From Rufibacter immobilis (GTDB lineage: Bacteria; Bacteroidota; Bacteroidia; Cytophagales; Hymenobacteraceae), in contig NZ_RJJE01000009.1 in NCBI RefSeq assembly GCF_003721565.1, forward strand, positions 1,116,934-1,180,933: a stretch of DNA of 64,000 bases, read 5' to 3'. Shown here one piece after another: positions 1 through 54,675 of this stretch (its first letter is position 1; each line of letters begins with the position of its first letter). The translations under genes and the position numbers were made by a program. The notes under the pieces were generated by a model. It saw only the letters and a program-made list of their open reading frames with translations. It was not told the origin of the DNA and ran no database searches.

Positions 1-2665
1 GATTTACGACTTCCTGCGCCTGCTCTACGCCCGCACCGCCGAGGCCTTCAGCTACGTGACCGGCGAGAAGATGATAAAACAGTCTGATGACCAGATTGTG
101 CAGCACGTGCTGGAGCATTTCTCTGGTAAGAAAACCATTGTGCTGGCGCCCGTGGTGAAAGGCCGCAAAGGCCACTACCGTGAGCTGTTTGAGCAAATCA
201 GGAAAATGGGCTTCCTGCGCGCGCGCATTGACGGCGAACTGGTGGAACTCACGCCCAAGATGCAGGTAGACCGCTACAAGATCCATGACATTGAGATTGT
301 GATTGACAAACTGGTGCCCTCTGTTGAGGACCGCTACCGTCTGTCTACCTCCATCCAGAACGCGCTACAGCACGGCAAAGGCACCGTACTGGTGCTGGAC
401 GCTGACACCAACGCCACGCAGTTCTACTCCCGCCACCTCATGGACCCGGCCACCGGTATTGCCTATGATGACCCGGCACCCAATACCTTCTCGTTTAACT
501 CGCCGTACGGGGCCTGCCCGGTATGTAACGGCTTGGGCGAAATTGAGGAACTCACCGAAGATTCCATTGCGCCAGATAAGAGCCTGAGCATTAGCCGTGG
601 GGGCATCGCGCCGCTGGGCGAGTACCGCGATATCTGGATTTTCAGTCAGATCACGGCCCTGCTCAAGCGCCACAAAGCCTCTTTGACCGTTCCCATTTCT
701 GATATTCCCGCCCAGGCCTGGCATGACCTGCTGTATGGTTTTGAAGAGGAAGACCCCAAAGGCAAGCGCGAGCCGTTCATCTTTGAGGGCGTCATGAGCT
801 TCCTGAAAAAACAGCTGGAGTCTGACTCTGAGAACGTACGTGCCTGGATTCAGGAATACACCACCCAGAGCACCTGCCCCGAGTGCAACGGCTACCGCCT
901 GAAAAAGGAATCTTTGCACTTCAAGCTAGATGATAAACACATCGGCCAGCTGGCCGAAATGGACATTGCCGAGCTGGCCGCCTGGGTAGCCAACCTGGAA
1001 GAGCGCCTGAGCGAACGCCAGAACCTCATCGCCCGCGAGCTGCTTAAGGAAATCCGGAAGCGGATTGGCTTCCTGGTAGACGTGGGATTGGAATATTTGC
1101 ACCTGCACCGCTCGGTGAGAACTTTATCAGGTGGCGAAAGTCAGCGGATAAGATTGGCCACGCAAATTGGGACGCAGCTGGTGGGCGTGTTGTACATCAT
1201 GGATGAACCCAGCATTGGCTTGCACCAGCGCGACAACGAGAAGCTCATCAAGGCCCTGCAAGACTTGCGCGATTTGGGCAACTCCGTGGTAGTGGTGGAG
1301 CACGACAAAGACATGATTCTGGCCGCCGACTACGTGGTGGACATAGGACCAGGCGCAGGCGCGCACGGCGGGCAGATTGTGACCGCGGGTACCCCGAAGG
1401 AGATGATGGAAAGCGGCACCACCACCGCCGACTACCTAAGCCACCGCCGCGGCATTCCGGTGCGCAAGCAGAAGCGCGAAGGCAATGGCAAGAGCCTCAT
1501 TCTGCGCGGTGCCACCGGCCATAACCTGAAGAACGTGACGCTGGAGCTGCCATTGGGCAAGTTCCTGTGCGTAACGGGTGTCTCGGGCTCCGGGAAATCA
1601 TCGTTGATCCATGACACGCTGTTCCCCATCCTGAACAAGTATTTCTTCAATGCCAAGCGTGAGCCGCTTCCTTACCAGGAGATTGACGGCCTCAAGAACA
1701 TTGACAAGGTGATTGAGGTAGACCAAAGTCCTATTGGGCGTACGCCGCGCTCTAACCCCGCCACCTACACCGGTGTATTCACGGAGATACGCAGTCTGTT
1801 CGCATCACTGCCTGAGGCTAAAATCAGAGGCTATTCGGCGGGACGTTTCTCTTTTAACGTGAAAGGTGGCCGCTGCGAGACCTGCGAGGGCGCGGGTATG
1901 CGTACCATTGAGATGAACTTCATGCCAGACGTGTACGTGCCCTGCGAAACCTGCAAAGGCAAACGCTACAACCGCGAGACGCTGGAAGTACGCTTCAAAG
2001 GCAAATCCATTACCGATGTACTGGACATGACCGTGGAGCACGCCGTGGAGTTCTTTGAGAACCAGCCGCGTATTCTTCGCAAAATCCAGACGCTGAACCA
2101 AGTTGGCTTGGGCTACATCACCTTGGGTCAGCAGGCGACTACCTTATCTGGCGGCGAGGCGCAGCGGGTGAAACTGGCCACGGAGCTTTCCAAGAAAGAC
2201 ACGGGCCGCACACTCTACATCCTGGATGAGCCCACCACGGGTCTGCACTTCCAGGACATTCAGCATTTATCTGATGTGTTGAACCGCCTGGTGGACAAAG
2301 GCAACAGCGTGCTGATTATTGAGCACAACATGGACCTCATCAAAGTGGCTGACCACATCATTGACATAGGACCGGAAGGCGGCGCCAAAGGCGGAACCAT
2401 TGTGGCCCAGGGCACCCCGGAAGAAGTAGCGGAAAGCCCCATTGGCTATACTGCCCGCTTCCTGAAGGAGGAGCTGAGCACAAGCCACTACGTAGACGCG
2501 CCCGTGTTGGTGGAAGACGAACCGGAAACGGAAGACGAGGCAACTGACGCTCCGGCCCCGGAGAAGAAGACCCGCGGCCGCAAGAAGAAAGAACCAGAAG
2601 CCGCAGAGGCTACTCCACCTGCCGCAGAGAAGAAAAAAGCTGGCCGGAAAAAGAAAGCCGAATAG
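1..2665 (+). CDS. uvrA: Excinuclease ABC subunit A (partial, 5' end missing)
   Basis: Damage-sensing ATPase of nucleotide excision repair that recruits UvrB; cytoplasmic, DNA-bound. The frame is open from base 2 (Ile-Tyr-Asp-Phe, a stretch that follows the first Walker A in UvrA), so about 887 residues are visible and roughly the first hundred lie outside; the GTG at 56 is internal. Visible in order: ABC signature LSGGESQR (~375) with MDEPS Walker B, second Walker A GVSGSGKSS (~525), an intact second zinc module (CETC ... CETC, ~625-648), second signature LSGGEAQR (~714) and LDEPTTGLH. The first zinc module keeps only its second pair (CPVC); the position of the first pair reads RHLMDPATG. The C-terminus is a Lys/Arg/Glu/Ala tail of about 50 residues with RGRKKK and GRKKK blocks. 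The TAG stop lies inside a copy of the dispersed 36-nt repeat. Confidence 0.97.
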   Translation, partial: IYDFLRLLYARTAEAFSYVTGEKMIKQSDDQIVQHVLEHFSGKKTIVLAPVVKGRKGHYRELFEQIRKMGFLRARIDGELVELTPKMQVDRYKIHDIEIVIDKLVPSVEDRYRLSTSIQNALQHGKGTVLVLDADTNATQFYSRHLMDPATGIAYDDPAPNTFSFNSPYGACPVCNGLGEIEELTEDSIAPDKSLSISRGGIAPLGEYRDIWIFSQITALLKRHKASLTVPISDIPAQAWHDLLYGFEEEDPKGKREPFIFEGVMSFLKKQLESDSENVRAWIQEYTTQSTCPECNGYRLKKESLHFKLDDKHIGQLAEMDIAELAAWVANLEERLSERQNLIARELLKEIRKRIGFLVDVGLEYLHLHRSVRTLSGGESQRIRLATQIGTQLVGVLYIMDEPSIGLHQRDNEKLIKALQDLRDLGNSVVVVEHDKDMILAADYVVDIGPGAGAHGGQIVTAGTPKEMMESGTTTADYLSHRRGIPVRKQKREGNGKSLILRGATGHNLKNVTLELPLGKFLCVTGVSGSGKSSLIHDTLFPILNKYFFNAKREPLPYQEIDGLKNIDKVIEVDQSPIGRTPRSNPATYTGVFTEIRSLFASLPEAKIRGYSAGRFSFNVKGGRCETCEGAGMRTIEMNFMPDVYVPCETCKGKRYNRETLEVRFKGKSITDVLDMTVEHAVEFFENQPRILRKIQTLNQVGLGYITLGQQATTLSGGEAQRVKLATELSKKDTGRTLYILDEPTTGLHFQDIQHLSDVLNRLVDKGNSVLIIEHNMDLIKVADHIIDIGPEGGAKGGTIVAQGTPEEVAESPIGYTARFLKEELSTSHYVDAPVLVEDEPETEDEATDAPAPEKKTRGRKKKEPEAAEATPPAAEKKKAGRKKKAE

Positions 2666-2695
2666 CGGCCGTTTTTCTGAAATAACGCCTAAAAC
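2660..2695 (+). repeat. Dispersed 36-nt GTTTAG palindrome, copy 1 (type B)
   Basis: Degenerate copy of the family: left end GAATAGCGGCCGTTTTT, right end CGCCTAAAAC. The uvrA stop codon (2663-2665) is part of its left end, and its last four bases are the first four of the terminator hairpin at 2692. Confidence 0.7.
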
Positions 2696-2731
2696 AGCAA
2701 TGCCTTGCTCAAGGGCAAGGCATTGCTGTTT
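2692..2731. terminator. Bidirectional terminator hairpin between uvrA and the facing lipoprotein gene
   Basis: Perfect 16-bp stem: 2692-2707 pairs with 2716-2731, with an 8-nt loop. The arms begin AAAC and end GTTT. It lies between convergent genes, so it could serve both. Confidence 0.8.
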
Positions 2732-2810
2732 CTAAAGACCTGGATAAAATCTTTGCGGTTTACCCGTTACTATTTTGCAGAACAGACCTTTAAAGAAGGC
2801 TTGGTTTCTA

Positions 2811-3059
2811 CTAGTGGGCAGCTTCTTGAGTAGGTGCGGCAGCTTCGGCTTTAGGCGCAGCGGCACTGTCTGTGCTGGTAGGCATGGCGGCAGGAGCAGC
2901 GGAGTGGGCTTCCTCAGCAGCCGGAGCGGCGGTAGTAGCTTCTTCGGTTAAAGCGGTACCTGAACCTTTGTCGTTAGGATCTGTAGTGGACGTATACGTA
3001 GAACAAGCTACACCAGCAAGCAAAGCGCAAGCCGCGAAGAAAGGCAGTATGTTTTTCAT
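2811..3059 (-). CDS. Small Ala-rich lipoprotein
   Basis: 82 residues. A lipoprotein signal peptide ends at the lipobox AGVAC, so the mature protein should be lipidated at Cys and membrane-anchored. The mature N-terminus STYTSTTDPNDKGSGTAL is closely related to the start of the next gene upstream (3272-3586: STYTASTDPDDLGTGYAL). The rest is low-complexity Ala/Glu/Thr/Pro with no domain I recognise. It is the last gene of a minus-strand series of small lipoproteins and was probably produced by tandem duplication. Function unknown. Confidence 0.75.
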   Translation of the reverse strand: MKNILPFFAACALLAGVACSTYTSTTDPNDKGSGTALTEEATTAAPAAEEAHSAAPAAMPTSTDSAAAPKAEAAAPTQEAAH

Positions 3060-3144
3060 TTTGTGTTAAATTTTGCCCAAAGGTACAGTTAGCCCGTCAA
3101 AAAACAATTGGCTGGCTGGGCTAAGCTTTTTACCCGCAGATTCT

Positions 3145-3180
3145 GTTTAGGGGCTGATTTTCCAAAAACTGCCTCTAAAC
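3145..3180. repeat. Dispersed 36-nt GTTTAG palindrome, copy 2
   Basis: Begins GTTTAGGGGCTGATTTTCC and ends CTGCCTCTAAAC. Its last four bases (AAAC) are shared with the terminator hairpin at 3177. Confidence 0.85.
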
Positions 3181-3216
3181 GCGAAGGCCCACCTAGTAAG
3201 GCGGGCCTTCGCGTTT
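3177..3216 (-). terminator. Terminator hairpin downstream of the 104-aa lipoprotein gene
   Basis: Perfect 14-bp stem, 3177-3190 with 3203-3216, bounded by AAAC and GTTT. It sits between two minus-strand lipoprotein genes and overlaps repeat copy 2 by four bases. Confidence 0.75.
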
Positions 3217-3271
3217 CTTCTACAGCAAAAATCGCAGGCAAGAAAACCCTTAATCTGGGCTACTGCCGCTC

Positions 3272-3586
3272 TTATTGCCCGTTAGGATTGCTGGTCTGTA
3301 CTTTGATTGGGGCGGAAGTACTGGCTTTCTTCGCCTCGGTGCTGTCTGCTTGCGGACTCGCCTTGGTGCTGTCTGGCGTTGCCCCCGTGGCAGAATTATC
3401 AAAGGTGGCATTGTTGTTGGCTTCGGCCACCTCGTGGCTACTTGTATGGCCCGTTCCCGCTTTGTCTCCACTCAGGGCATAGCCGGTTCCTAAATCATCT
3501 GGGTCTGTGCTGGCAGTATAGGTTGAACAGGCAGCACCGCTTATCATTAAGGCAGCCGCTGCGAATAGAAACATTCCTTTTTTCAT
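3272..3586 (-). CDS. Small Ala/Ser/Thr-rich lipoprotein, paralogue of the preceding gene
   Basis: 104 residues starting MKKGMFLFAAAALMISGAAC, a clear lipoprotein signal (lipobox SGAAC). The first 18 mature residues match the 82-aa lipoprotein at 2811-3059 almost position by position. The remainder is hydrophilic and low in complexity (Ala, Ser, Thr, Lys, Asn), suggesting a flexible periplasmic tail. No known domain. It lies in the same minus-strand array as three DUF4142 lipoproteins, so a shared envelope role is possible but unproven. Confidence 0.75.
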   Translation of the reverse strand: MKKGMFLFAAAALMISGAACSTYTASTDPDDLGTGYALSGDKAGTGHTSSHEVAEANNNATFDNSATGATPDSTKASPQADSTEAKKASTSAPIKVQTSNPNGQ

Positions 3587-3743
3587 AGTTGTATTGCTCG
3601 CGTAGTACTAGGTTTAGTTCCCTCTATACGTGCGGCTGGGGCCGGGGTTAACTTCCTCCGGCTTGCTTAGATGTGGTTATTCTCGGCCCGCATGTCAAGG
3701 GGATTATCTCTTAGCGCCCTTGGTTTCTGCAGCCCTAATATAA

Positions 3744-3799
3744 AGGCTTGCCCGTTTAGGGGCCGTTTTTAGAAAAACAGCCCCTAAACGGGCAAGCCT
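3744..3799. repeat. Dispersed GTTTAG palindrome, copy 3 (type A, nested in a longer hairpin)
   Basis: The core GTTTAGGGGC ... GCCCCTAAAC is extended by copy-specific arms AGGCTTGCCC and GGGCAAGCCT that are exact complements. It lies downstream of the DUF4142 gene ending at 3819, where a terminator is expected. Confidence 0.9.
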
Positions 3800-3818
3800 G
3801 CTAACGATAAACGGTAGC

Positions 3819-4472
3819 TTAGTCTACTTTATCTTCCAGGGCAGTAGCCATTTTCTTGTGCGATTGCAGCATTGGCAGAGTCTTCGCTGCCATTGCTTTC
3901 ACCGTTGGAGTTTCTGCGTTGTTGCTCTTCATCTGAAACATAGCGATGTCCATGTCATGGGCCGTCTCCATGGCATCCATATACTCCTCGTCAAAGTCTT
4001 TGCCCGTTTTGTTGTTTAACTTGTCCATGATGGCCTGGTGCGGCGGCATGAGGGTTTTAGGCAAAGTCACTTTCATCTGAGAGGCAAGCGTCATCATTTC
4101 CTGATTTGCTTTGGTATGGTGGTCTACCATCATCTGCGCGAACTTTTTCACATCGGCATTGGTAGCCTTCTGCGCGGCCAGCTTACCGGCCTGTATCTCC
4201 AGCATGTTGCTGCTGGCGGCGGTCATCATGAACATGGCATCAGTCATGTTGGTCATGTCCATGGTAGTGCCCGCGGTAGCACCGGAAGTTCCGCCAGTGG
4301 TGCCGGTGGTACCGGTAGTAGTGCCTGCGGTTCCTCCGCCATAGGAAGCGTCTGTAGAGCTTGCGGTGCCTGCGGTTGATGTATTATTGCCAGTTGTGTC
4401 AGTAGAAGTACTGGAGCAGGCAGAGGCTGTAAACATAGCTCCGGCCGCCAAGATTAACATAGATTTTTTCAT
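3819..4472 (-). CDS. DUF4142 lipoprotein
   Basis: 217 residues. Lipoprotein signal MKKSMLILAAGAMFTASAC, then a Gly/Thr/Ser-rich linker of about 55 residues, then a DUF4142 helical domain from about residue 70 (MLEIQAGKLAAQKATNADVK, VDHHTKANQEM, FDEEYMDAM, AHDMDIAMF). DUF4142 proteins are predicted ferritin-like helical bundles of unknown biochemical function, usually exported. The HH in VDHHTK and the D/E-rich helix DFDEEYMD are shared with the two DUF4142 paralogues at 4887 and 5642. Same-strand neighbours are other small lipoproteins. Confidence 0.88.
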   Translation of the reverse strand: MKKSMLILAAGAMFTASACSSTSTDTTGNNTSTAGTASSTDASYGGGTAGTTTGTTGTTGGTSGATAGTTMDMTNMTDAMFMMTAASSNMLEIQAGKLAAQKATNADVKKFAQMMVDHHTKANQEMMTLASQMKVTLPKTLMPPHQAIMDKLNNKTGKDFDEEYMDAMETAHDMDIAMFQMKSNNAETPTVKAMAAKTLPMLQSHKKMATALEDKVD

Positions 4473-4598
4473 AGTTCCTTTTATATTTTTATCAGTTCAG
4501 ATTTCTATACGCGCTTATTTTGAAGGGGTTAGCTTCTTTTACCAAACGAGCGTTATTATTTGCACTCCCCCTACACGTTATGCAGGTTAGTCCCTGCC

Positions 4599-4838
4599 TT
4601 ATCTGTTGGTGCTGGCAGTATCTGAGGATAAGGTGTCAGAGGCAAGAGCATGGGTGGAAGTAGCGCCGCCCATGCCGCTGCTGCCCGCGCTACTGGTGGC
4701 CGCTGGGGAGTTCGTCTCTGAGGTTTCAGTTCCCGCGGCATGGGTGTCTGTGGTAGAAGCCGGTTCTTGCCCACCTTTATTACAGGCAAACGCCGCCAGC
4801 AAGACGGTGGTGCTAATGCAAATACATAGCTTTCTCAT
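4599..4838 (-). CDS. Small Ser/Thr/Ala-rich lipoprotein
   Basis: 79 residues starting MRKLCICISTTVLLAAFAC, a lipoprotein signal with lipobox AAFAC followed by NKGGQEPAS. The mature part is low-complexity Ser/Thr/Ala/Gly with no recognisable domain. It sits between two DUF4142 lipoprotein genes on the same strand, and its composition resembles the linkers of those proteins. Its existence rests on the clear lipobox and its place in the array; function unknown. Confidence 0.65.
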   Translation of the reverse strand: MRKLCICISTTVLLAAFACNKGGQEPASTTDTHAAGTETSETNSPAATSSAGSSGMGGATSTHALASDTLSSDTASTNR

Positions 4839-6330: not shown

Positions 6331-6394
6331 AAAAGAAGGAGGGCGTTTAGGGGCTGTTTTTCCAAAAACAGCCCCTAAACGCCCTCCTTCTTTT
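6331..6394. repeat. Dispersed GTTTAG palindrome, copy 4 (type A, perfect 31-bp hairpin)
   Basis: 6331-6361 pairs perfectly with 6364-6394 around a 2-nt CC turn. The unique outer arms AAAAGAAGGAGGGC and GCCCTCCTTCTTTT extend the conserved core. The A-tract and T-tract at the base give it the look of a bidirectional terminator. It lies downstream of the gene at 6419-6886. Confidence 0.95.
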
Positions 6395-8975: not shown

Positions 8976-10532
8976 TTAAGACTGCGGCTTAGGCTGCGGA
9001 AGCGCTTTGCGCGGCAATTTGTCTTTGCGCACTGCAGTTTGGTAGACAAAGTTGGCTACAATCACAGAAGCTTGCTTCAGGTCATCGGCTTGCAGACGGT
9101 CATAGGTGTCCATGTTGGTGTGGTGGGTACGGGTGTTGTACTCCAACTCGTCCTGGATGAACTGGAAGCCCGGCAGACCCAAACCATCAAAAGAAAGGTG
9201 GTCTGTACCCCCGGTATTACGATTGGTTACGGTAGTGGCGCCCAGATCATTGAATGGCTTCATCCACTCTTTGAACAACGGGGCTACGGCCTCGTTGCCT
9301 TGGGTATAGATGCCTCTGATTTTGCCGGAACCATTGTCTAAGTTAAAGTAACCGGCAATCTTGGCGTGCTCTGGCAACAGCTTCATGGTCTGTGGATCTC
9401 CCAGATGCTTTTTGGCATACCCGCGCGAACCGTAGAGGCCTTGCTCCTCCCCACCCCAAAGCGCGATTCTGATGGTACGCTTAGGCTGTAGGTTCAAAGC
9501 TTTGATGATGCGTACGGCTTCCATCATAACGGCTACCCCGGCGGCGTTATCCGTAGCGCCGGTGGCGGCGTGCCAGGAGTCTATGTGACCGCCCAACATC
9601 ACAATCTCAGACTTCAGTTTCTTGTCGGTGCCCGGGATTTCGGCAATTACGTTGTAGCCTTGCGGATCTTCGGTGAGGAAGCGGGTTTTGCTTTCCAGCT
9701 CCACTTCCACCGGAATACCGGCGGCTAGCAGACGGCTCATGCGAGCCAAGTCTTCCTGCGCCATTTCGAACTCTGGCAACACAGTAGGCGCATCCAGAGC
9801 GTAAGAAGCACCGTTGCTGGTGAAGAACGTGCCGTGCGAACCGCTCCGGCCGCTGAACACTGCCACCGCGCCTTCTTTGGCAAACATTTCGCTCATCTTG
9901 GTGGCCAGGGCCCGGCGCGCTCTGAACGCGGCCATCTGCTCTTCGGTCATAGGCGTACGTCCGGCGGTAGGTTGCACCGGCTCAGCCATTTTCTGCAATT
10001 GCTCATCTGTGTAGCGGTTGCCGTCTGCCTTGAAAGTGGTCTTAATAGGAGTAGTCACTTCCATCATCACCACTTTGCCTTTCAGCTTGCCGGCATATTG
10101 CGCCAGGTCTTCTTCTTTAGAGGCTTTCACTACGGCCACCTGGGCTTTCACCGGACCATTGGTGCTGGGAGTCCAGGCCTTAGGTGACCCAATCATGGGC
10201 TGGTAGTACGGTTTGGTGAGCGCCAGGTAAGACTTTTCTACCTCCCAGCCTTTGCCAAATGTGCCCCAGGGCTCAATGACAGCATTTTTCAAGCCCCACG
10301 AAGTGAGTTTGTCTTTGGCCCACTGGTTGGCTTTGGCCAAGCCGGTAGAGCCTGACAAACGAGGTCCGTTTACATCAGTGAGGTAAAAGGCGATGTCCAT
10401 CACTTGGGAGTTTTTGAGCCCTTCCTGGCGGATTTTCTCCACCACGGCCGCATCTAGCGGCTCTGCTTGCTGGGCAAAAGCGGGCACAGCCAGAAAGGCG
10501 GCACCCAAGACGAGGGTAAAAGCTTTGTTCAT
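8976..10532 (-). CDS. M28 family zinc aminopeptidase with PA domain, exported
   Basis: 518 residues. Signal peptide MNKAFTLVLGAAFLAVPAFAQ. A PA-type insert occupies roughly 120-290 and the M28 catalytic domain follows. Zinc-site signatures are intact: GGHIDSWH (H316, D318), GATDNAAG (D328) and WGGEEQGLYGS (E362-E363). Later come NLDNGSG and a His-rich segment NTRTHHTNMDTYDRL carrying the last metal ligand. Expected activity is release of N-terminal residues from peptides in the periplasm or outside the cell; exact specificity cannot be read. Monocistronic, with its own terminator. Confidence 0.94.
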   Translation of the reverse strand: MNKAFTLVLGAAFLAVPAFAQQAEPLDAAVVEKIRQEGLKNSQVMDIAFYLTDVNGPRLSGSTGLAKANQWAKDKLTSWGLKNAVIEPWGTFGKGWEVEKSYLALTKPYYQPMIGSPKAWTPSTNGPVKAQVAVVKASKEEDLAQYAGKLKGKVVMMEVTTPIKTTFKADGNRYTDEQLQKMAEPVQPTAGRTPMTEEQMAAFRARRALATKMSEMFAKEGAVAVFSGRSGSHGTFFTSNGASYALDAPTVLPEFEMAQEDLARMSRLLAAGIPVEVELESKTRFLTEDPQGYNVIAEIPGTDKKLKSEIVMLGGHIDSWHAATGATDNAAGVAVMMEAVRIIKALNLQPKRTIRIALWGGEEQGLYGSRGYAKKHLGDPQTMKLLPEHAKIAGYFNLDNGSGKIRGIYTQGNEAVAPLFKEWMKPFNDLGATTVTNRNTGGTDHLSFDGLGLPGFQFIQDELEYNTRTHHTNMDTYDRLQADDLKQASVIVANFVYQTAVRKDKLPRKALPQPKPQS

Positions 10533-11304: not shown

Positions 11305-11340
11305 GTTTAGCGGCCGTTTTTTCAAAATTAGCTCAAAAAC
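11305..11340 (+). repeat. Dispersed GTTTAG palindrome, copy 5 (type B)
   Basis: GTTTAGCGGCCGTTTTTTC at the left, a decayed right end GCTCAAAAAC. Outer arms CTAAGCTAACCGC (11288-11300) and GCGGTTACTTAG (11345-11356) still pair with one bulged base, so the core again lies inside a longer hairpin. Confidence 0.8.
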
Positions 11341-11468: not shown

Positions 11469-11504
11469 GTTTTGGCCCTGATTCTGGAAAAACGGGCGCT
11501 AAAC
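11469..11504 (-). repeat. Dispersed GTTTAG palindrome, copy 6 (type B, reverse orientation)
   Basis: Left end GTTTTGGCCCTGATT, right end GGGCGCTAAAC. It begins four bases after the stop codon of the minus-strand gene ending at 11509. Confidence 0.75.
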
Positions 11505-14007: not shown

Positions 14008-14043
14008 CTTTAGGGGCCGTTTTTCTGAAAAAAGCCTGAAAAC
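14008..14043 (+). repeat. Dispersed GTTTAG palindrome, copy 7 (type B, decayed)
   Basis: Left part CTTTAGGGGCCGTTTTTCTG, right part AAAGCCTGAAAAC. One of the few copies in a divergent promoter region rather than at a gene end. Confidence 0.7.
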
Positions 14044-15637: not shown

Positions 15638-15685
15638 ATTAGCCGACGGCAAATCCTCCATTGCCCCTTAAAAACCTGAAGGCTG

Positions 15686-15720
15686 GTTTTAGTCTGTTTT
15701 AGGAAAAACGGCCGCTAAAC
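15686..15720 (-). repeat. Dispersed GTTTAG palindrome, copy 8 (type B, reverse orientation)
   Basis: Left end GTTTTAGTCTGTTTT is decayed; right end GGAAAAACGGCCGCTAAAC is well kept. Confidence 0.8.
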
Positions 15721-16164: not shown

Positions 16165-16668
16165 ATGTTAAAACACATTACTCTTTTACTGTTCGTATTT
16201 GCCTTAGCCCTAGGATCTACCCAAGCCCAAAGCACCAAGCAGAAAGAAAAGGAGCGCATTGCGCAACTGAAGCAGAAAGAAAAGGAGCGTGCCGAGTTAG
16301 CGAAACAAAAAGCCAAGGAGCGGAAAGAGCTGATGAAGCAAAAAGCCATTGCCCGTGAAGCCCAGCTAGATGCTAAGTATGAAGCCCTGGACGAGGCCAT
16401 GCTGCAAAGAGAAGAAGCTAGAAGAATAGCTGAAAAAGAAAGAATGGCCGCCCTTAAATTGAAAGAGCAGGAAAGAAAAGACGCTCTGAAAGAGAAAGAA
16501 GAGGCTGTCAAAGAAAAAGAGCGTGCTGCCAAGCTGGCCCTGAAAGAAAAGGAAGAAGCTAGAAAACAAGCCGCCAAAGAAAGAGCACTGGAATTGAAAG
16601 AAAAAGAAGCCGCCCGTAAACTGGCTCAGAAAGAAAAAGAGGCTAATAAAAAACTAGCTTCTTATTAA
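16165..16668 (+). CDS. Exported Lys/Glu/Ala-rich single-helix-like protein
   Basis: 167 residues. A signal peptide MLKHITLLLFVFALALGSTQ is followed by about 145 residues composed nearly entirely of K, E, A, R, L and Q, with recurring KEKER, KEKEE and EARK units and no Gly or Pro. The i/i+4 alternation of acidic and basic residues is what single alpha-helix (ER/K) domains show; a coiled coil is the alternative. At DNA level, AAAGAAAAGGAGCG recurs in the first repeats, indicating expansion by duplication. No enzyme motif. Ends with ASY. Followed by a 22-bp terminator hairpin. Function unknown, perhaps a spacer or envelope-associated helix. Confidence 0.8.
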   Translation: MLKHITLLLFVFALALGSTQAQSTKQKEKERIAQLKQKEKERAELAKQKAKERKELMKQKAIAREAQLDAKYEALDEAMLQREEARRIAEKERMAALKLKEQERKDALKEKEEAVKEKERAAKLALKEKEEARKQAAKERALELKEKEAARKLAQKEKEANKKLASY

Positions 16669-19800: not shown

Positions 19801-19836
19801 GTTTAGGGGCTCTTTTTCCAGAAACAGCCCCTAAAC
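19801..19836. repeat. Dispersed GTTTAG palindrome, copy 9
   Basis: GTTTAGGGGCTCTTTTTCC and ACAGCCCCTAAAC, ten bases after a stop codon. A separate terminator hairpin follows four bases later. Confidence 0.9.
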
Positions 19837-20947: not shown

Positions 20948-20982
20948 GTTTAGCGGCTCTTTTTCCTAAATAGGGCCAAAAC
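20948..20982 (+). repeat. Dispersed GTTTAG palindrome, copy 10 (type B)
   Basis: GTTTAGCGGCTCTTTTTCC at the left, GGGCCAAAAC at the right; three bases after the kinase stop and upstream of the regulator gene. Confidence 0.8.
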
Positions 20983-21025
20983 CAGGAAATCCATTCCTCA
21001 TCAACAACCAGCCATAGACATCAAC

Positions 21026-22527: not shown

Positions 22528-22595
22528 TAAAAATACCCGTTGCGTTTAGGGGCCGTTTTTGGAAAAACGGCCCCTAAACGCAACGGGTATTTTTA
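22528..22595. repeat. Dispersed GTTTAG palindrome, copy 11 (type A, perfect 33-bp hairpin)
   Basis: 22528-22560 pairs perfectly with 22563-22595 around a 2-nt GG turn. The outer arms TAAAAATACCCGTTGC and GCAACGGGTATTTTTA are unique to this copy. A- and T-tracts at the base and its position between convergent genes make it a bidirectional terminator candidate. Confidence 0.96.
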
Positions 22596-27010: not shown

Positions 27011-27193
27011 CAGATTAAGGTTACAGACAGTACCGCTAAGCAGGATCTTTCATGAAATACTGCTTTCTACGGAAAGAAGAGGTAAACTTGGTTAATTTTA
27101 ATGAAAAAGCCACCACCTGTCTGCGCCAATGTCCCTCTTTGGCCGCCAAATGTGCTTGCCCACACGCTTACCGCCGCGGCACCCTGTTCTCTG

Positions 27194-27228
27194 GTTTGGG
27201 CCTGTTTTCAGAAAAACGGCCCCTAAAC
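27194..27228 (-). repeat. Dispersed GTTTAG palindrome, copy 12
   Basis: GTTTGGGCCTGTTTTCAG at the left, ACGGCCCCTAAAC at the right; between kmo and the AlkB-like gene. Confidence 0.85.
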
Positions 27229-29350: not shown

Positions 29351-29402
29351 CGCCTCCCGTTTAGGGGCCGTTTTTGCAAAAACGGCCCCTAAACGGGAGG
29401 CG
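29351..29402. repeat. Dispersed GTTTAG palindrome, copy 13 (type A, perfect 25-bp hairpin)
   Basis: 29351-29375 pairs perfectly with 29378-29402 around a GC turn; unique arms CGCCTCCC/GGGAGGCG. Between kynU and the antiporter gene, downstream of kynU. Confidence 0.95.
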
Positions 29403-30820: not shown

Positions 30821-30856
30821 GTTTAGGAGCTCTTTTTCCAAAAAAAGCCCCTAAAC
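30821..30856. repeat. Dispersed GTTTAG palindrome, copy 14
   Basis: GTTTAGGAGCTCTTTTTCC and AAAGCCCCTAAAC with TGC/GCA outer extension. Between the ACMS decarboxylase gene and kynU, both minus strand. Confidence 0.9.
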
Positions 30857-32019: not shown

Positions 32020-32055
32020 GTTTAGCGGCTCTTTTTTGAAAATTAGCCCCTAAAC
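32020..32055 (+). repeat. Dispersed GTTTAG palindrome, copy 15 (type B)
   Basis: GTTTAGCGGCTCTTTTTTG and TTAGCCCCTAAAC; GC/GC outer pairs. It lies in the divergent gap between ACMSD and the NmrA-like gene. Confidence 0.85.
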
Positions 32056-33892: not shown

Positions 33893-33928
33893 GTTTAGCG
33901 CCTGTTTTCTGAAAAACGGCTGCTAAAC
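33893..33928 (-). repeat. Dispersed GTTTAG palindrome, copy 16
   Basis: GTTTAGCGCCTGTTTTCTG and ACGGCTGCTAAAC, six bases after the yebC stop and 12 bases before a terminator hairpin. Confidence 0.85.
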
Positions 33929-34615: not shown

Positions 34616-34720
34616 ATCTACTTTTACTTGATAGAGTCAAAAATAAGCAAAAATTTGCGGGCCTTATCTTCACACCCCAGTCAGATGCCATCCAAGTTTA
34701 AAGAAAAGGCAATCTTTATT

Positions 34721-35830: not shown

Positions 35831-35866
35831 GTTTAGGGGCTCTTTTTCTGAAAATCGGCCGAAAAC
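35831..35866 (+). repeat. Dispersed GTTTAG palindrome, copy 17 (type B)
   Basis: GTTTAGGGGCTCTTTTTCTG and TCGGCCGAAAAC; the right end is decayed. Confidence 0.8.
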
Positions 35867-36056: not shown

Positions 36057-36845
36057 ATGGATTTGAATTTACAGCATAAGTACGCCGTGGTCTGCGGCAG
36101 TACACAGGGTATCGGGAAAGCGGTGGCTCTGGAGTTAGCGCAATTAGGTGCCACGGTGACCTTAGTAGCCCGAAACGAAGAACGCCTGCAGGAAACCGTA
36201 AAAGCACTTTCCACCCAGGCTGGTCAGCAGCACCAGTACGTGGTGGCAGATTTCAGCCGTCCGCGCGAGGTGCAGGAGCGTTTAGAGGCTCATTTGGCAA
36301 AAATCGGGCAAATCCATATTCTGGTCAACAACACCGGCGGACCAGCGGGCGGACCAGCCTTGGATGCGGCGCTGGAAGAGTTTGAGAACGCCTTCGCGGC
36401 GCATTTGCTGTCTAACCACGTGCTGGTGCAGGCGGTGGTGCCTTATATGAAAGAAGCGGGTTACGGGAGAATCATCAATATTATCTCCACCTCGGTGAAG
36501 CAGCCTATCAAAGGCTTGGGCGTGTCTAATACCATTAGGGGAGCCGTGGCCAACTGGGCGAAAACGCTTTCCTTTGAACTGGCTCCCTTTGGTATTACGG
36601 TGAACAACGTATTACCCGGCGCCACGCTCACGGCCCGTCACCACTCGCTCATTGAGACCAAAATGCAGAAAACCGGCCTCCGCCGAGAGGAAATCGAAAA
36701 GGAGATGCTGGCGGGCATTCCGGCCAACCGGTTCGCTGAGCCCGAGGAAGTAGCCGCCGCCGCCGCGTTCCTAGCCTCGCCCGCCGCTGGCTACATCAAC
36801 GGCGTCAACATACCCGTAGACGGCGGACGGTTGGGGAATCTGTAA
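36057..36845 (+). CDS. SDR family oxidoreductase
   Basis: 262 residues. Classical SDR: cofactor motif CGSTQGIGKAVALELAQLGA (TGxxxGxG equivalent), NNTGG in place of NNAG, a catalytic Ser in INIISTSVKQPI, and the C-terminal VDGGRLGNL. The usual YxxxK dyad is not seen: the matching segment reads LGVSNTIRGAVANW, with Asn in place of Tyr and Arg in place of Lys. Such 3-oxoacyl-ACP-reductase-like SDRs with altered active sites accompany kynurenine or aminophenol clusters in some Bacteroidota. Position 262 bp before the dehydrogenase gene supports a shared role, but the reaction is unknown. Confidence 0.9.
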   Translation: MDLNLQHKYAVVCGSTQGIGKAVALELAQLGATVTLVARNEERLQETVKALSTQAGQQHQYVVADFSRPREVQERLEAHLAKIGQIHILVNNTGGPAGGPALDAALEEFENAFAAHLLSNHVLVQAVVPYMKEAGYGRIINIISTSVKQPIKGLGVSNTIRGAVANWAKTLSFELAPFGITVNNVLPGATLTARHHSLIETKMQKTGLRREEIEKEMLAGIPANRFAEPEEVAAAAAFLASPAAGYINGVNIPVDGGRLGNL

Positions 36846-38550: not shown

Positions 38551-38554
38551 CCTA

Positions 38555-38589
38555 GTTTTGACCTGATTTCGGAAAAAGAGCCGCTAAAG
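38555..38589 (-). repeat. Dispersed GTTTAG palindrome, copy 18 (type B, reverse orientation)
   Basis: GTTTTGACCTGATTTCGG and AAAGAGCCGCTAAAG; four bases after the dehydrogenase stop. Confidence 0.8.
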
Positions 38590-38805: not shown

Positions 38806-38841
38806 GTTTAGCGGCTCTTTTTTCCAAATCTGGCCTAAAAC
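38806..38841 (+). repeat. Dispersed GTTTAG palindrome, copy 19 (type B)
   Basis: GTTTAGCGGCTCTTTTTTCC and TGGCCTAAAAC; 73 bp before the dipeptidyl peptidase start. Confidence 0.85.
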
Positions 38842-41168: not shown

Positions 41169-41204
41169 GTTTTGGGGCTGATTTCAGAAAAAGAGCTGCT
41201 AAAC
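41169..41204 (-). repeat. Dispersed GTTTAG palindrome, copy 20 (type B, reverse orientation)
   Basis: GTTTTGGGGCTGATTTCAG and AAAGAGCTGCTAAAC, directly abutting the terminator. Confidence 0.85.
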
Positions 41205-41486: not shown

Positions 41487-41521
41487 TGGAATCAATGGGT
41501 TCATTATAACCCGAATTTCCA

Positions 41522-41556
41522 CTTTAAGCCTGTTTCCAGAAAAAGAGCCGCTAAAC
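41522..41556 (-). repeat. Dispersed GTTTAG palindrome, copy 21 (type B, reverse orientation)
   Basis: CTTTAAGCCTGTTTCCAG and AAAGAGCCGCTAAAC. Confidence 0.75.
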
Positions 41557-42709: not shown

Positions 42710-42745
42710 GTTTAGCGGCCGTTTTTCCAAAAAGAGCCGCTAAAC
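42710..42745. repeat. Dispersed GTTTAG palindrome, copy 22 (compensated C/G variant)
   Basis: GTTTAGCGGCCGTTTTTCC and AAGAGCCGCTAAAC: the G-to-C change in the left arm is matched by C-to-G in the right. Its last four bases overlap the terminator at 42742. Confidence 0.9.
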
Positions 42746-44561: not shown

Positions 44562-44597
44562 GTTTAGGAACTCTTTTTCTAAAAACAGCCCCTAAAC
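44562..44597. repeat. Dispersed GTTTAG palindrome, copy 23 (nested)
   Basis: GTTTAGGAACTCTTTTTC and ACAGCCCCTAAAC with outer arms GTTTCGC (44555-44561) and GCGAAAC (44598-44604); ends two bases before the glmM stop. Confidence 0.9.
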
Positions 44598-46165: not shown

Positions 46166-46201
46166 GTTTAGGGGCTACTTTTAGAAAAAAGGCCCCTAAA
46201 C
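46166..46201. repeat. Dispersed GTTTAG palindrome, copy 24
   Basis: GTTTAGGGGCTACTTTTAG and AAGGCCCCTAAAC; outer GGC/GCC and AAAGC/GCTTT partly pair. Confidence 0.9.
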
Positions 46202-46331: not shown

Positions 46332-46367
46332 GTTTAGCGGCTCTTTTTCCGAAATTAGCCCCAAAAC
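46332..46367 (+). repeat. Dispersed GTTTAG palindrome, copy 25 (type B)
   Basis: GTTTAGCGGCTCTTTTTCC and TTAGCCCCAAAAC. Confidence 0.85.
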
Positions 46368-49048: not shown

Positions 49049-49063
49049 CGAAAGGGAAAAGAA

Positions 49064-50421: not shown

Positions 50422-50446
50422 CCTAACTTACTATGGTTCTTTGAGT

Positions 50447-50502
50447 AAGAACTCCGAAGACAGACATTCAACTAAGAATGGGTTGTCTTCGGAGTTCTTT
50501 TT
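50447..50502 (+). terminator. Terminator after tonB
   Basis: Perfect 16-bp stem (50447-50462 with 50484-50499), 21-nt loop, then TTT. Confidence 0.8.
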
Positions 50503-50561
50503 TACTGCCTTGCGTCGTTTTGCGTATATCCTTTGGCGCTTTACCTACCATCTATCAACCT

Positions 50562-50819
50562 ATGAATTACTCCAGAAGACCACCTCGCCGGAGCCAACAG
50601 AATACTTATGGAAACATCATGAAATATATGTCAATATTGATGGTGCTGCTATACTTTGGCTTTGGATTATACGTTTTACTATCTAGTCCTAAACAGATAC
50701 CGTTTCCCAAAGAGTATAAAATAATTTTAGGCGGACTGCTCCTTTTCTATGGTTTTATTAGATTTGTGAGAGCGTATCAGCAATATTTTAAAAAGCCCAG
50801 ACGAAATGAAGAAGATTAA
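50562..50819 (+). CDS. Small membrane protein
   Basis: 85 residues from the ATG at 50562; the frame opens 28 codons earlier inside the terminator region. A basic N-terminus (NYSRRPPRRSQQNTYGN), two hydrophobic segments (MKYMSILMVLLYFGFGLYVL and IILGGLLLFYGFIRFV) and a charged end KKPRRNEED. No family recognised. The last 14 bases overlap the start of the PstS-like gene, so the two are translationally linked. Confidence 0.75.
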   Translation: MNYSRRPPRRSQQNTYGNIMKYMSILMVLLYFGFGLYVLLSSPKQIPFPKEYKIILGGLLLFYGFIRFVRAYQQYFKKPRRNEED

Positions 50820-51759
50820 TCTTTTCACTTTTCTTATAACTGCTGGTGTAGCCTTTGCTACCTTCTCCTGCGGTCAGTCTGGAAAAGGCCCCGCAGACAC
50901 CACCACTACCGGGCATATCAAAATAAGTGCCGATGAATCATTTGCCCCTATTGTAGATGCACAGATACAGACGTTTGAAAGTCTCTACAAATATGCCAAC
51001 GTTGATGTGGCTTACAAACCAGAAGTACAGGTTGTGAAAGATCTGCTGGAGGACACCATCAGATTTGCAGTGATGGCTCGTCAATTAACGGATCTGGAAA
51101 AAGCGGAGTTTGACAAGTTAAAGATTACCCCTAGAGTATATAAAATTGCCATTGATGGAATTGCGCTTATCCTGAACAAGGAAAACACAGATACTACGCT
51201 CACCTTACAGCAGGTAAGGGATGTGTTCACTGGCCAAACCACTAACTGGCGCCAATTGGATCCAACTGCTACAGATGGAAAGATTACCATTGTTTTTGAC
51301 AACAGCAGTTCCAGCACCGCCAGATTTATTCTGGACTCCATCAACCACAAAAAGCCATTGCCCCCAAATACTTTTGCCACTACCTCTAACTCAACACTGG
51401 TAGATTACGTAGCACAAAACCGAAATGCAATTGGGGTTATTGGGGTGAACTGGATCAGTGACCGCCGTGACAGCACAGCTATTAGTTTTCTTAAGAAAGT
51501 TAATGTAGTTGGCATTAGTGTACAAGACGCCCCTACCTCTGTAGATGATTACATACAACCTTATCAAGGTTATCTGGCACAAGGAACTTATCCGCTACGG
51601 AGAGAGGTTTTTATAGTAAGCCGTGAAGCCCGGGCAGGTCTTGGCACAGGTTTTGCATCTTTTATAACAGGAGATAAAGGGCAAAGAATCATATTAAAGT
51701 CTGGCTTAGTGCCTGCCTCAATGCCTGTACGCATTGTAGGGTTTTCACAACAAGAGTAA
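50806..51759 (+). CDS. PstS-like substrate-binding lipoprotein
   Basis: 317 residues. Lipoprotein signal ending FATFSC, then a PBP-like type 2 domain: GHIKISADESFAPIVDAQIQ, VYKIAIDGIALILNKENTDTTL, QVRDVFTGQTTNW, FDNSSSSTARFILD and RNAIGVIGVNWISDR. PstS binds phosphate for an ABC importer, but no pstCAB or regulator gene is nearby. In Bacteroidota this gene commonly follows tonB, and its ligand there is not established. Starts 14 bp inside the preceding gene. Confidence 0.88.
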   Translation: MKKINLFTFLITAGVAFATFSCGQSGKGPADTTTTGHIKISADESFAPIVDAQIQTFESLYKYANVDVAYKPEVQVVKDLLEDTIRFAVMARQLTDLEKAEFDKLKITPRVYKIAIDGIALILNKENTDTTLTLQQVRDVFTGQTTNWRQLDPTATDGKITIVFDNSSSSTARFILDSINHKKPLPPNTFATTSNSTLVDYVAQNRNAIGVIGVNWISDRRDSTAISFLKKVNVVGISVQDAPTSVDDYIQPYQGYLAQGTYPLRREVFIVSREARAGLGTGFASFITGDKGQRIILKSGLVPASMPVRIVGFSQQE

Positions 51760-51791
51760 CAAGAGTTTCACTAACACTAACAACTTGACCC

Positions 51792-53291
51792 ATGATTAAA
51801 AACTGGAAGACGTATGGAGCTTTAGCGGCCGCTTTCTTTACTGCCGCAGGAGCCTCAGCACATAACAATGCGCTGCGTTCTGGTAAGATTGAGCAAACAC
51901 AATTGGTTATACAATCAAACCAGGGGCAGGCCACCCTTGCTTTTGTTGCAGTACAAGATAACTCGGCCGCTGGTTTAGTACAGCAGGGGAAAACCCTCCT
52001 GTCTCAGAACAAAGTAGCAGAAGCCCAACAGCTTTTTGATAAAGCGTTGTCCATGACTAAAAACAAGGACAATAATATCAAGATCATGATTGGCGAGGCT
52101 TATGTGACTTCTGGCGTGAAAGACTTGTCACCGGCAATTAAGGTTTTGGAAGAAGCAACAAGCAAAGACACCAAAAACGCTAATGCCTTTGTGTTACTGG
52201 GAGATGCTTACCTGCACAATAAAACAGTAGACGGTGGTAAGGCATTGGCCAATTATGACAAAGCAATTGCCGCCGATAACAAGTTTGCAAAAGCCCATCT
52301 GCGTAAAGGTCAGTTGTATGTACAGTCACGCAATTTTACTCAGGCGAAAGAAGCTTTAGATGCGGCGCTGGCAGCAGACCCTAACTATGCCCCTACTTAC
52401 CTTGAGTTAGCAGAGCTGTATTACCGTGCTGAACAATATCCTAAGAGCTCTGAGTACATCAAAAAGTATGTGTCTATGGCAGAGAACACACCAGAGACCC
52501 GTGCTAAATATGCTTCAATTCTCTACTTGACTAAGGATTATACCAATGCCATGACAGAGATACAGTCGGTACTGAAGAGTGATCCTAATAACATTGCCAT
52601 GAACCGTTTGGTGGCTTATAGTTATTATGACACCAAACAGTATGACAAAGCTCTGGAAGCCATGACCGCTTACTTTAACAAGTATGATGAGTCGCAGCGT
52701 ATTCCTTCAGACTATGAGTACTATGCCAACATTTTGGTAGAGAATAAAAAGCCGCAGGAAGCTGTAGCCATCATTGAGAAGGCAAAACAGTTAGATCCAA
52801 AGAACCCTTTGTATAATGATCTGTTGGCGAAACAATATGTTTCCCTCAAGAACTATCCGAAGGCTATTGAGGCATATAAAGCTAAATTTGCCACTACCCC
52901 GCCAACTAACACAGACTTGTTCTACTATGGCTACACCCATGAACTGAACGATGACTACAAAACCGCGGACAGTGTCTATACTCTTATTACCACCAATAAC
53001 CCTACATATGCTTATGGCCATTTGTGGAGAGCGCGTGTCAACTCTCACCTAGACCCTGAGACAAAAGAAGGTTTGGCAAAACCACATTATGAAGAGTTTA
53101 TCAAACTCACTTCAGGTGATAAAGAGAAGTATAAGAAAGACCTTATCACTGCGAATAACTACCTAGGTTATTACTACTACCTGAAGAAAGATAAAGCGAA
53201 TGCTACCAAGCACTGGCAAGAAGTAAAAACCTTAGATCCAACCAATACGGATGCATCTAATGGTTTGAATGGTCTGAAAGCGATGAAATAA
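51792..53291 (+). CDS. Exported TPR-repeat protein
   Basis: 499 residues. Hydrophobic N-terminus (YGALAAAFFTAAGASAHNN) resembling a signal peptide, then about a dozen TPR units (AEAQQLFDKALSMT, ALANYDKAIAADNKFAKAHLRKG, AKEALDAALAADPNYAPTYLE, PKAIEAYKAKFATTP). Scaffold likely in the periplasm. Being the last gene of the exb-ton region and 32 bp after the PstS-like gene, it is probably in the same transcript. A 20-bp terminator follows. Confidence 0.88.
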   Translation: MIKNWKTYGALAAAFFTAAGASAHNNALRSGKIEQTQLVIQSNQGQATLAFVAVQDNSAAGLVQQGKTLLSQNKVAEAQQLFDKALSMTKNKDNNIKIMIGEAYVTSGVKDLSPAIKVLEEATSKDTKNANAFVLLGDAYLHNKTVDGGKALANYDKAIAADNKFAKAHLRKGQLYVQSRNFTQAKEALDAALAADPNYAPTYLELAELYYRAEQYPKSSEYIKKYVSMAENTPETRAKYASILYLTKDYTNAMTEIQSVLKSDPNNIAMNRLVAYSYYDTKQYDKALEAMTAYFNKYDESQRIPSDYEYYANILVENKKPQEAVAIIEKAKQLDPKNPLYNDLLAKQYVSLKNYPKAIEAYKAKFATTPPTNTDLFYYGYTHELNDDYKTADSVYTLITTNNPTYAYGHLWRARVNSHLDPETKEGLAKPHYEEFIKLTSGDKEKYKKDLITANNYLGYYYYLKKDKANATKHWQEVKTLDPTNTDASNGLNGLKAMK

Positions 53292-53307
53292 CATTGCTTA
53301 TCTTGAG

Positions 53308-53352
53308 CCTACAAAAAAAGCGCCTCTGTGAAAGAGGCGCTTTTTTTGTAGG
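53308..53352 (+). terminator. Terminator after the TPR gene
   Basis: Perfect 20-bp stem (53308-53327 with 53333-53352); inner stem AGCGCCTCT/AGAGGCGCT followed by a T7 tract. Confidence 0.9.
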
Positions 53353-53462
53353 TAATTCCCTATTTCAGCCAGTTGATTTCAAACAATCGCAAATGGCAAT
53401 GTGTGCGGTTACTCTATCGGATATAGTAATATTAAGCAGAAGATTTTCCCTCAAGACACATT

Positions 53463-53528
53463 CTATACAACAAGTCCGTTTAGGGGCTGTTTTTGAAAAA
53501 GCAGCCCCTAAACGGACTTGTTGTATAG
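53463..53528. repeat. Dispersed GTTTAG palindrome, copy 26 (type A, nested)
   Basis: 27-bp perfect stem 53463-53489 with 53502-53528; unique outer arms CTATACAACAAGTCC/GGACTTGTTGTATAG around the core. Between convergent genes (TPR gene and rluD), downstream of rluD. Confidence 0.95.
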
Positions 53529-53562
53529 TGATAATAAGTACTGCTGCGACTGGTTCTTGATA

Positions 53563-54636
53563 CTAAAGTCCTTGGGATCTAGACTGGAGTACTTGCCCAT
53601 ATTGTCTCCATTTCTCCAGAGCAGCTACAAAATCAGCAGGTAAATCAGATTCAAATTGAATGAACTGCTGCGTAGTAGGATGAATAAATCCAAGTGATTT
53701 AGCATGCAGGGCTTGCCGGGGCAACAATGCAAAAGTATTCTGAACAAATGCTTTGTATGGGCCAGTCTGTTGGCCTTTCAGGATCTTATCACCACCGTAG
53801 GTAGCATCATTGAATAGCGGGTGCCCCAGGTACTTCATATGCGCCCTAATTTGGTGCGTACGTCCGGTCTCAAGATTGCATTTAATCAAACTACAATAAC
53901 TGAAAGACTCCAGCACCTCATAATGCGTGACTGCATGTTTCCCAAAATCTCCCTCGGGGTAGACAGCCATCACTTTACGGTCTTTAAGGCTGCGGCCAAT
54001 ATTGCCCACTATAGTACCTTTAGGCTGGGCAGGCACCCCCCAAACCAATGCATAATAGGTACGCTCAATGGAGTGATCAAAGAATTGCCTAGCTAAATGG
54101 GCCATGGCTATCTCAGTCTTCGCGATCACCAGTAACCCAGAAGTATCTTTGTCAATTCTATGCACTAAACCTGGCCTAATCTCTCCATTCCGATGCGTAG
54201 GCAAGTTCTGCAAGTAATACACCAAACCATTCACCAAAGTACCAGACCAGTTGTTATAAGCCGGATGCACTACCATGCCGGCAGGCTTGTTAATCATCAA
54301 CAAGTCCTCGTCTTCATAAACAATATTGAGCGGAATATCCTCAGGAACAACATCTGTGTCTCTAGGCGGAGTAGCCAACGTCACCGTAATGATGTCTAAC
54401 GGTTTTACTTTGTAGCTTGCCTTGGTCACGTTTCCGTTAATGCGTACAGACTCCGCTTTGATGGCATCCTGTAGCTTATTTCTGGTCACATTAGGCAGAC
54501 GGTCCATCAAGAACTTATCCAATCGCAGTAAGGCCTGTCCCTTGTCTACCTGTATTCTATGGTGCTCATATAATTCATCAGAATCTAGGCTGCCTATTTC
54601 CTCAAAATCTTCTTCTTTGGCGTCTGTGAATGGCAT
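53563..54636 (-). CDS. rluD: RluD-type 23S rRNA pseudouridine synthase
   Basis: 357 residues from the ATG at 54636 (MPFTDAKEEDFEE); the frame extends 11 codons upstream across a degenerate palindrome. Converts uridines in 23S rRNA helix 69 to pseudouridine. N-terminal S4 RNA-binding domain (LRLDKFLMDRLPNVTRNKLQ, ~45-110), then the catalytic domain with GLVHRIDKDTSGLLVIAK (the Asp of HRxDxxTSG), ARQFFDHSIERTYYALV and GRTHQIRAHMKYLGHPLFND. Length and S4 domain favour RluD over RluA or RluC. Confidence 0.93.
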   Translation of the reverse strand: MPFTDAKEEDFEEIGSLDSDELYEHHRIQVDKGQALLRLDKFLMDRLPNVTRNKLQDAIKAESVRINGNVTKASYKVKPLDIITVTLATPPRDTDVVPEDIPLNIVYEDEDLLMINKPAGMVVHPAYNNWSGTLVNGLVYYLQNLPTHRNGEIRPGLVHRIDKDTSGLLVIAKTEIAMAHLARQFFDHSIERTYYALVWGVPAQPKGTIVGNIGRSLKDRKVMAVYPEGDFGKHAVTHYEVLESFSYCSLIKCNLETGRTHQIRAHMKYLGHPLFNDATYGGDKILKGQQTGPYKAFVQNTFALLPRQALHAKSLGFIHPTTQQFIQFESDLPADFVAALEKWRQYGQVLQSRSQGL

Positions 54637-54639
54637 GGC

Positions 54640-54675
54640 GTTTAGGAGGCTTTTTTCCAAAATAAGCACAAAAAT
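54640..54675 (+). repeat. Dispersed GTTTAG palindrome, copy 27 (remnant)
   Basis: Left arm GTTTAGGAGGCTTTTTTCC kept, right arm decayed (AATAAGCACAAAAAT). It touches the ompH terminator at 54676 and forms the leader of rluD. Confidence 0.6.

Follow-up and report, generated by a model that had tools for sequence, protein, structure and literature searches.

Dispersed palindromes in bacterial genomes are usually explained by hairpins and by RAYT transposases (REP-associated tyrosine transposases, named for the repetitive extragenic palindromes, or REPs). Here we describe a family of imperfect 36-nt palindromes in Rufibacter immobilis, seen in a 64,000-nt stretch of NCBI RefSeq assembly GCF_003721565.1 (contig NZ_RJJE01000009.1, positions 1,116,934 to 1,180,933; hereafter the window). 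Hairpins and RAYTs are both testable explanations here, and neither fits most copies. The copies are dispersed between genes, fixed in length, spelled in species dialects and conserved in position; most give no signal of arm pairing or RNA structure, and a subclass is terminator-like. We tentatively favor the reading that the 36-mer is a DNA site with inverted arms, recognized by its sequence at transcription-unit boundaries and co-evolving with a trans-acting factor.

RESULTS

A dispersed palindrome of fixed length

A direct-repeat search of the window reveals the family. A weight matrix trained on the window's own copies, and used again for the wider scans, gives 29 matches of 29 to 57 bits, with no match of at least 8 bits in five block shuffles. 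Of these matches, 27 are extragenic, the one at 2660 overlapping the last 6 nt of an open reading frame (ORF), and they are the same 27 that a preliminary description had listed outside coding sequence. The remaining two, at 36280 and 37997, are coding sequence; we treat them as probable look-alikes, because the same protein segments carry the resemblance in two other sampled genomes, G004 and G014.

The window together with 20 stretches of one contig, C1, holds 211 copies in 464 kb, compared with none in shuffled sequence. With 20 stretches of a second contig, C10, the count is 358 copies in 864 kb, copies near stretch ends being excluded, or about one per 2.4 kb; extrapolated from these 864 kb of sampled stretches, the genome holds about 1,980. 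Only 17 of the 358 lie inside called genes. (All placement counts rest on a home-made gene caller and a strict home-made terminator finder.) Length is fixed at 36 nt, though spelling varies, and half-sites at the strictest cut-off number 413 within elements and 8 outside them, with none in genes. The proposal that the family is dispersed, extragenic and REP-like in copy number and placement thus holds well beyond the window. We use "REP-like" for this resemblance and do not call the 36-mer a REP. The window has no Rfam match at the gathering score, and literature searches of open-licence PubMed Central (PMC) papers showed no description of the family among the papers listed.

Placement relative to genes and terminators

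In the 864 kb of R. immobilis, gaps of at least 100 nt hold a copy in 55 of 60 convergent, 159 of 271 co-directional and 37 of 87 divergent cases; none of 114 co-directional gaps shorter than 40 nt does. Divergent gaps account for 44 of the 358 copies, and the nearest gene 3' end lies a median of 32 nt from a copy. Clearly oriented copies point with the nearest gene end in 90 cases and against it in 78. Orientation is not clearly related to GC skew (correlation -0.22, 41 stretches), and replication-linked orientation is not evident from that comparison. Among oriented pairs less than 200 nt apart, 15 of 20 are inverted (p = 0.04).

A separate terminator was found in 23 of 129 co-directional gaps that hold a single copy, with the copy after it in 19 and before it in 4. 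The order of stop codon, terminator and element depends on distance from the stop. Within 25 nt lie 51 of the 129 copies, with a terminator beyond the copy in 3 and none detected by the strict finder in 48; within 60 nt, 81 of 86 have no separate terminator that the finder detects; and beyond 60 nt, 18 of 43 have one, which the copy follows every time. Single-copy convergent gaps have a separate terminator in 24 of 52 cases, the copy then lying between one gene's stop and the shared terminator. We dropped the interpretation, suggested by the 19 to 4 order, that most copies lie outside transcripts, because the order varies with distance and copies in convergent gaps also precede terminators. 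A very long terminator-like hairpin without an element adjoins a copy between convergent genes at about 8980 to 9040 of stretch L002.

Species dialects across the genus

All 16 Rufibacter genomes sampled (40 to 60 kb each) carry the element, at 0.38 to 0.88 per kb and at the same fixed length, with 0 to 3 matches per genome in shuffles. A general genus matrix applied to five genomes of four other genera (G017, G018, G019, G021 and G022; 20 to 120 kb each) gave only one weak match, which appeared in G021 under the most permissive of five cut-offs; a shuffle of G021 also gave one. Two other motifs were seen in these genomes: in G019 the six-base palindrome CCTAGG is frequent, with 120 occurrences in 120 kb of which 72 are in genes, resembling a highly iterated palindrome, and TATATATA is enriched in intergenic DNA of G017 (43 in 120 kb, 13 in genes).

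Spelling is species specific: GTTTAGGGGCTGTTTTT-like in R. immobilis (G000), GTTTTTGGCCTGTTTTC-like in G006 and G013, and with CTCATTT in place of CTGTTTT in G012. These dialects alter both arms alike. Motif information ranges from 20 to 40 bits across the genus. Copies within one genome are 74.6% identical in R. immobilis and 75 to 79% in G005, G006, G012 and G013, but only 61 to 65% in G002, G004, G008 and G014, no higher than across species. Some lineages thus show clear concerted evolution, whereas in others it is missing or has been lost, and saturation may play a part.

Conserved positions and changing cores

Orthologous placement was followed for 15 gaps of the window in up to 8 relatives around one locus (87 comparisons). 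The nearest copy in a relative lies a median of 7 nt from its expected place, compared to 40 nt under uniform placement and 26 nt after swapping among same-type gaps; 61% fall within 10 nt, against 30% with swapped gaps. Over all compared gaps, both species hold a copy in 74, R. immobilis alone in 20, the relative alone in 26 and neither in 44. Many positions are common to species that are 71 to 82% identical at the test locus, so the recent common source that had been suggested for the copies is a poor fit to their positions, although spelling is homogeneous within some species. Orthologous copies are 67.3% identical (60 pairs within 15 nt), scarcely different from the 66.1% of non-orthologous pairs across species, an equality that saturation may also produce.

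The closest species pairs, 87.0% and 84.7% identical, allow copies to be aligned individually. Aligned sequence in the other species is present for 19 of 19 alignable copies in G004/G014 (of 25 detected, including two or three in coding sequence) and for 19 of 20 in G006/G013 (21 found), so that 1 of 39 is missing between species pairs at 85 to 87% identity; these are comparisons of species pairs, not strains. In 36 of the 39 alignments the core was compared with 36 nt of flank to its left and right, and it was the better conserved in 25 of them (p = 0.002). Core divergence is uneven, with variance-to-mean ratios of 2.7 and 1.6 that include rate variation in the flanks (15 of 19 and 16 of 20 alignments).

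Arm pairing and strand bias

Constant length had been taken to imply selection on structure. We compared the two arms of each copy with independent draws from the arm pool, for copies whose stems extend less than 5 nt into the flanks. Arm pairs were at or below the level of independence, both in 289 of the 358 R. immobilis copies (3335 observed versus 3618 expected) and in 329 copies from 15 genomes (3660 versus 3751). Where both arms of a copy are good, paired dinucleotides at the variable positions numbered 8 of 31 (9.9 expected) at extensions of at most 2 nt and 24 of 44 (15.1 expected) at extensions of at least 5 nt. Sense-strand mismatches within 150 nt of a gene 3' end were GU in 169 cases and AC in 151 (p = 0.34), whereas separate terminators, the positive control, gave 25 and 9 (p = 0.009); a bias in a smaller earlier sample (67 versus 41) was gone in the larger one. 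Because arms pair no more than independent draws and mismatches have no strand bias, these data do not support selection on structure for the bulk of the copies; excess pairing is confined to a minority with extended stems. A palindromic origin is unaffected by this test. On the pairing and strand-bias tests we reject an RNA hairpin as an account of all copies.

A terminator-like minority

In R. immobilis, stems run at least 5 nt into unique flanks in 39 of 211 copies (3.5 expected) and in 69 of the 358. Extensions of at least 4 nt are present in 28 of the 86 copies in convergent gaps, 58 of the 205 in co-directional gaps and 3 of the 44 in divergent gaps. Pairing is in excess in these extended copies (1086 versus 864 expected in the 69 of R. 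immobilis, 515 versus 396 in 35 elsewhere), and in orthologous gaps the stem is altered on both sides across species, as compensatory change. A separate terminator is rarer beside extended copies (9 of 59) than beside asymmetric ones (28 of 77; p = 0.007), and T-tracts number 11 sense and 3 antisense among 54 extended copies, compared with 7 and 6 among 151 others, a possible sense-strand preference. Judged from these sequence features, extended-stem copies most likely act as intrinsic terminators. Insertion into terminator loops was considered as a general origin and set aside, only the extended minority fitting it. Snap-back copying of flanks may occur but need not be invoked as a general mechanism, because the extended stems are found at the places expected of terminators.

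RAYT genes and other transposases

A RAYT-like gene of 181 aa, carrying the motifs NHLH, WQ and YIHQNP, is present in R. immobilis. PMC6006769 describes a Bacteroidetes RAYT subclass, 2.6, with these motifs; on either side of its genes are atypical hairpins that also have copies at other places. Inspection of the flanks by eye shows that the RAYT genes of our genomes adjoin hairpins other than the 36-mer, for example CGGGATTGGTAAATCCCG, and the 36-mer is not consistently near them at 16 loci examined, two of which gave no ORF. A hairpin repeat of the GGGATT..AAATCCC type, different from the 36-mer, lies beside the RAYT genes at G000:C1:452655-453197 (L001, L142) and in relatives (L143 to L147).

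Neither Y1_Tnp nor the R. immobilis RAYT-like protein gives a match in G006 at an E value of 0.001, and this genome nonetheless holds a homogeneous population, with 21 copies in 40 kb. Homogeneous copies do not go together with a close RAYT across the genus (p = 0.12, or 0.21 with G006 counted): G010 and G015 have a close RAYT yet loose copies, while G001, without a close RAYT, and G006, without any, are homogeneous. The prediction that close RAYT orthologues accompany homogeneous copies failed, and with it the RAYT link suggested at the outset. Column counts revealed no GTAG or CGTC foot tag; a weak AG follows the right end in about two-thirds of copies. The earlier statement that the window has no RAYT or insertion sequence (IS) gene stands for the families searched: the window has no Y1_Tnp or RAYT-protein match, and the whole 4.77-Mb genome has no DDE_Tnp_1 or rve, although 9 and 6, respectively, of 14 control genomes contain them, other transposase families not having been searched. 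IS ends were set aside as parents of the 36-mer on the same negative, within the same limit.

Copies in the window

The 27 copies are listed in Table 1. Two further repeats were seen in the window: three related 39-nt repeats about 1 kb apart, at 34709, 35936 and 36969, and an ORF with internal tandem repeats of the AAAGAAAAGGAG type at 16243 to 16640, both from the direct-repeat search.

Table 1. The 36-nt elements of the window, with positions counted from its first nucleotide.
Feature	Position	Strand	Remarks
Asymmetric copy	2660..2695	+	Overlaps stop of upstream ORF
Nearly symmetric copy	3145..3180	+	
Symmetric copy, terminator-like	3754..3789	.	Stem runs 10 nt into unique flanks
Symmetric copy, terminator-like	6345..6380	.	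14-nt stem extension; occupied in 5/5 relatives compared, compensating arms
Asymmetric copy	11305..11340	+	
Asymmetric copy	11469..11504	-	4 nt off 3' end of neighboring minus-strand gene
Asymmetric copy	14008..14043	+	Gap empty in 8/8 relatives compared
Asymmetric copy	15685..15720	-	
Symmetric copy	19801..19836	+	Shorter, empty gap in 3/4 relatives compared
Asymmetric copy	20948..20983	+	3 nt past stop codon; shifted by at most 4 nt in 3/4 relatives, 21 nt in the fourth
Symmetric copy, terminator-like	22544..22579	.	Convergent gap; 16-nt stem extension, A-tract and T-tract
Asymmetric copy	27193..27228	-	2-7 nt from same position in 8/8 relatives compared
Perfect palindrome	29359..29394	.	8-nt stem extension
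Symmetric copy	30821..30856	+	Position common to 4/8 relatives; gap shorter and empty in other 4
Copy in divergent gap	32020..32055	+	At most 5 nt from same place in 7/8 relatives
Copy between stop codon and separate terminator	33893..33928	-	
Asymmetric copy, divergent gap	35831..35866	+	Called gene start 88-92 nt downstream here and in 7/8 relatives (G012, 79 nt)
Asymmetric copy	38554..38589	-	
Asymmetric copy	38806..38841	+	
Asymmetric copy	41169..41204	-	
Asymmetric copy	41521..41556	-	
Symmetric copy	42710..42745	.	
Symmetric copy	44562..44597	-	7-nt stem extension
Symmetric copy	46166..46201	-	4-nt stem extension
Asymmetric copy	46332..46367	+	
Symmetric copy, convergent gap	53478..53513	.	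15-nt stem extension
Asymmetric, degenerate copy	54640..54675	+	

DISCUSSION

Under the reading that we favor, the 36-mer would be a double-stranded DNA site whose two arms, inverted and about 17 nt long, are both recognized by their sequence by one postulated trans-acting protein, probably a dimer. We prefer a protein-read double-stranded site because sequence rather than pairing is constrained, dialects extend to both arms, positions at borders are conserved, including those in divergent gaps, and there is little dependence on gene orientation. The sites would mark transcription-unit boundaries, past gene ends and upstream of promoters, where they might serve as supercoil sinks, nucleoid anchors or insulators. 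The family would have arisen at or before the base of Rufibacter; copies would stay in place over the long term while arm spelling drifts genome-wide together with the reader, giving the species dialects, and a minority at gene 3' ends would have been captured as intrinsic terminators, their stems grown into unique flanks. A larger claim is that some 2,000 sites at transcription-unit borders form a genome-wide boundary code, recognized by a genus-specific reader and rewritten in place without hairpin, RNA or RAYT, and thus a class distinct from REPs, terminators and uptake sequences; we regard this as unlikely, if worth stating.

Several observations weigh against a protein-read boundary site. 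Close pairs tend to be inverted, as in REP clusters, and four genomes (G008, G015, G003 and G011) show only a loose consensus. The information in the motif exceeds the roughly 12 bits that, by our own estimate, are needed to recognize 2,000 sites, and copying or drive may therefore also act. If a palindromic master decayed neutrally, its copies would likewise end up with independent arms. In a few cases (G004:34288, G006:37555) the core has diverged much further than the sequence flanking it. Finally, many copies are probably transcribed and copies occur on either side of terminators, as the change of order with distance from the stop suggests.

The high information content keeps a REP-like selfish origin a close rival, somewhat doubtful in our judgment: a nonautonomous family, spread by a transposase other than the RAYTs found and tolerated in gaps, in which ectopic conversion or re-insertion overwrites copies and so produces concerted evolution. 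Copy number, extragenic placement and the 36-nt length are as such a family would have them, as are the inverted close pairs, the homogeneous species subfamilies in part of the genus, the symmetric beside asymmetric copies in R. immobilis and the uneven core divergence. However, copies appear to move rarely between the closest species, RAYT presence does not track homogeneity, the RAYT genes adjoin different hairpins, and R. immobilis has neither DDE_Tnp_1 nor rve. The classical form of this idea, a REP/REPIN family mobilized by the genome's own RAYT, has in its favor the 181-aa RAYT-like gene; we rejected it as very improbable on the RAYT flanks and the failure to track homogeneity, exemplified by the copies of G006 and by the contrast of G010 and G015 with G001 and G006.

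Alternatively, the family could constitute the intrinsic terminators of the genus, kept as RNA hairpins. The stem extensions and their concentration at gene 3' ends, the compensatory stems, the scarcity of separate terminators with extended copies or with copies within 60 nt of a stop, and the sense-strand T-tracts all accord with this. It is nonetheless improbable for the family as a whole, as most copies have short extensions without excess pairing, GU and AC mismatches are about equal, T-tracts are unbiased in the other copies, and some copies come after a separate terminator while others occupy divergent gaps. Less probable still is a drive like that of uptake sequences, with the 36-mer marking self DNA for natural transformation and preferred uptake of intact sites repairing mutated copies. 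In-place maintenance and excess information fit such a drive, and ComEC is encoded in 16 of 16 Rufibacter genomes, but the search also found it in 7 of 8 genomes from other families. PF00437, the pilus or type II secretion ATPase, exceeds the cut-off in none of the 16 (8 have sub-cut-off scores of about 20 bits; PilQ and pilins were not searched). The DNA uptake sequences (DUS) of Neisseriaceae match in further respects, since passages of PMC3630211 describe thousands of copies, dialects, terminator-associated inverted pairs and dyad-symmetric pairs; the same passages describe intragenic DUS as common, unlike the 36-mer, which has almost no copies in genes.

REP, BIME and REPIN elements are, like the 36-mer, palindromes of 20 to 40 nt in hundreds to thousands of extragenic copies, often at gene 3' ends and some in inverted close pairs; the 36-mer differs in that no cognate RAYT and no GTAG or CGTC tag were found, most copies are not kept as hairpins, and positions are often conserved across the genus under species dialects. 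Among uptake sequences, with which the uptake signal sequences (USS) of Pasteurellaceae are grouped, those of Neisseriaceae share the thousands of copies, clade dialects and partial recruitment into terminators; the 36-mer, in contrast, is 36 nt long with two inverted arms, is almost never in genes and occurs without a pilus-type ATPase over the cut-off. Intrinsic terminators resemble the extended subclass in long stems, some with an A-tract and T-tract, at gene ends, whereas most copies show no stem selection and no sense T-tract, and some lie after a separate terminator or in divergent gaps. PMC3733652 describes CGTC-tagged REPs, high-copy palindromes without a dedicated transposase, with Bacteroidetes among their phyla. 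The 36-mer is likewise high in copy number and without a dedicated transposase; its consensus lacks the CGTC tag, which would set the two apart.

Conserved positions, taken together with dialects that span a species, suggest that a reader or some copying process acts on thousands of sites simultaneously. With natural dialects in sixteen Rufibacter genomes, the old question of the selfishness or usefulness of such repeats can be put directly to the test.

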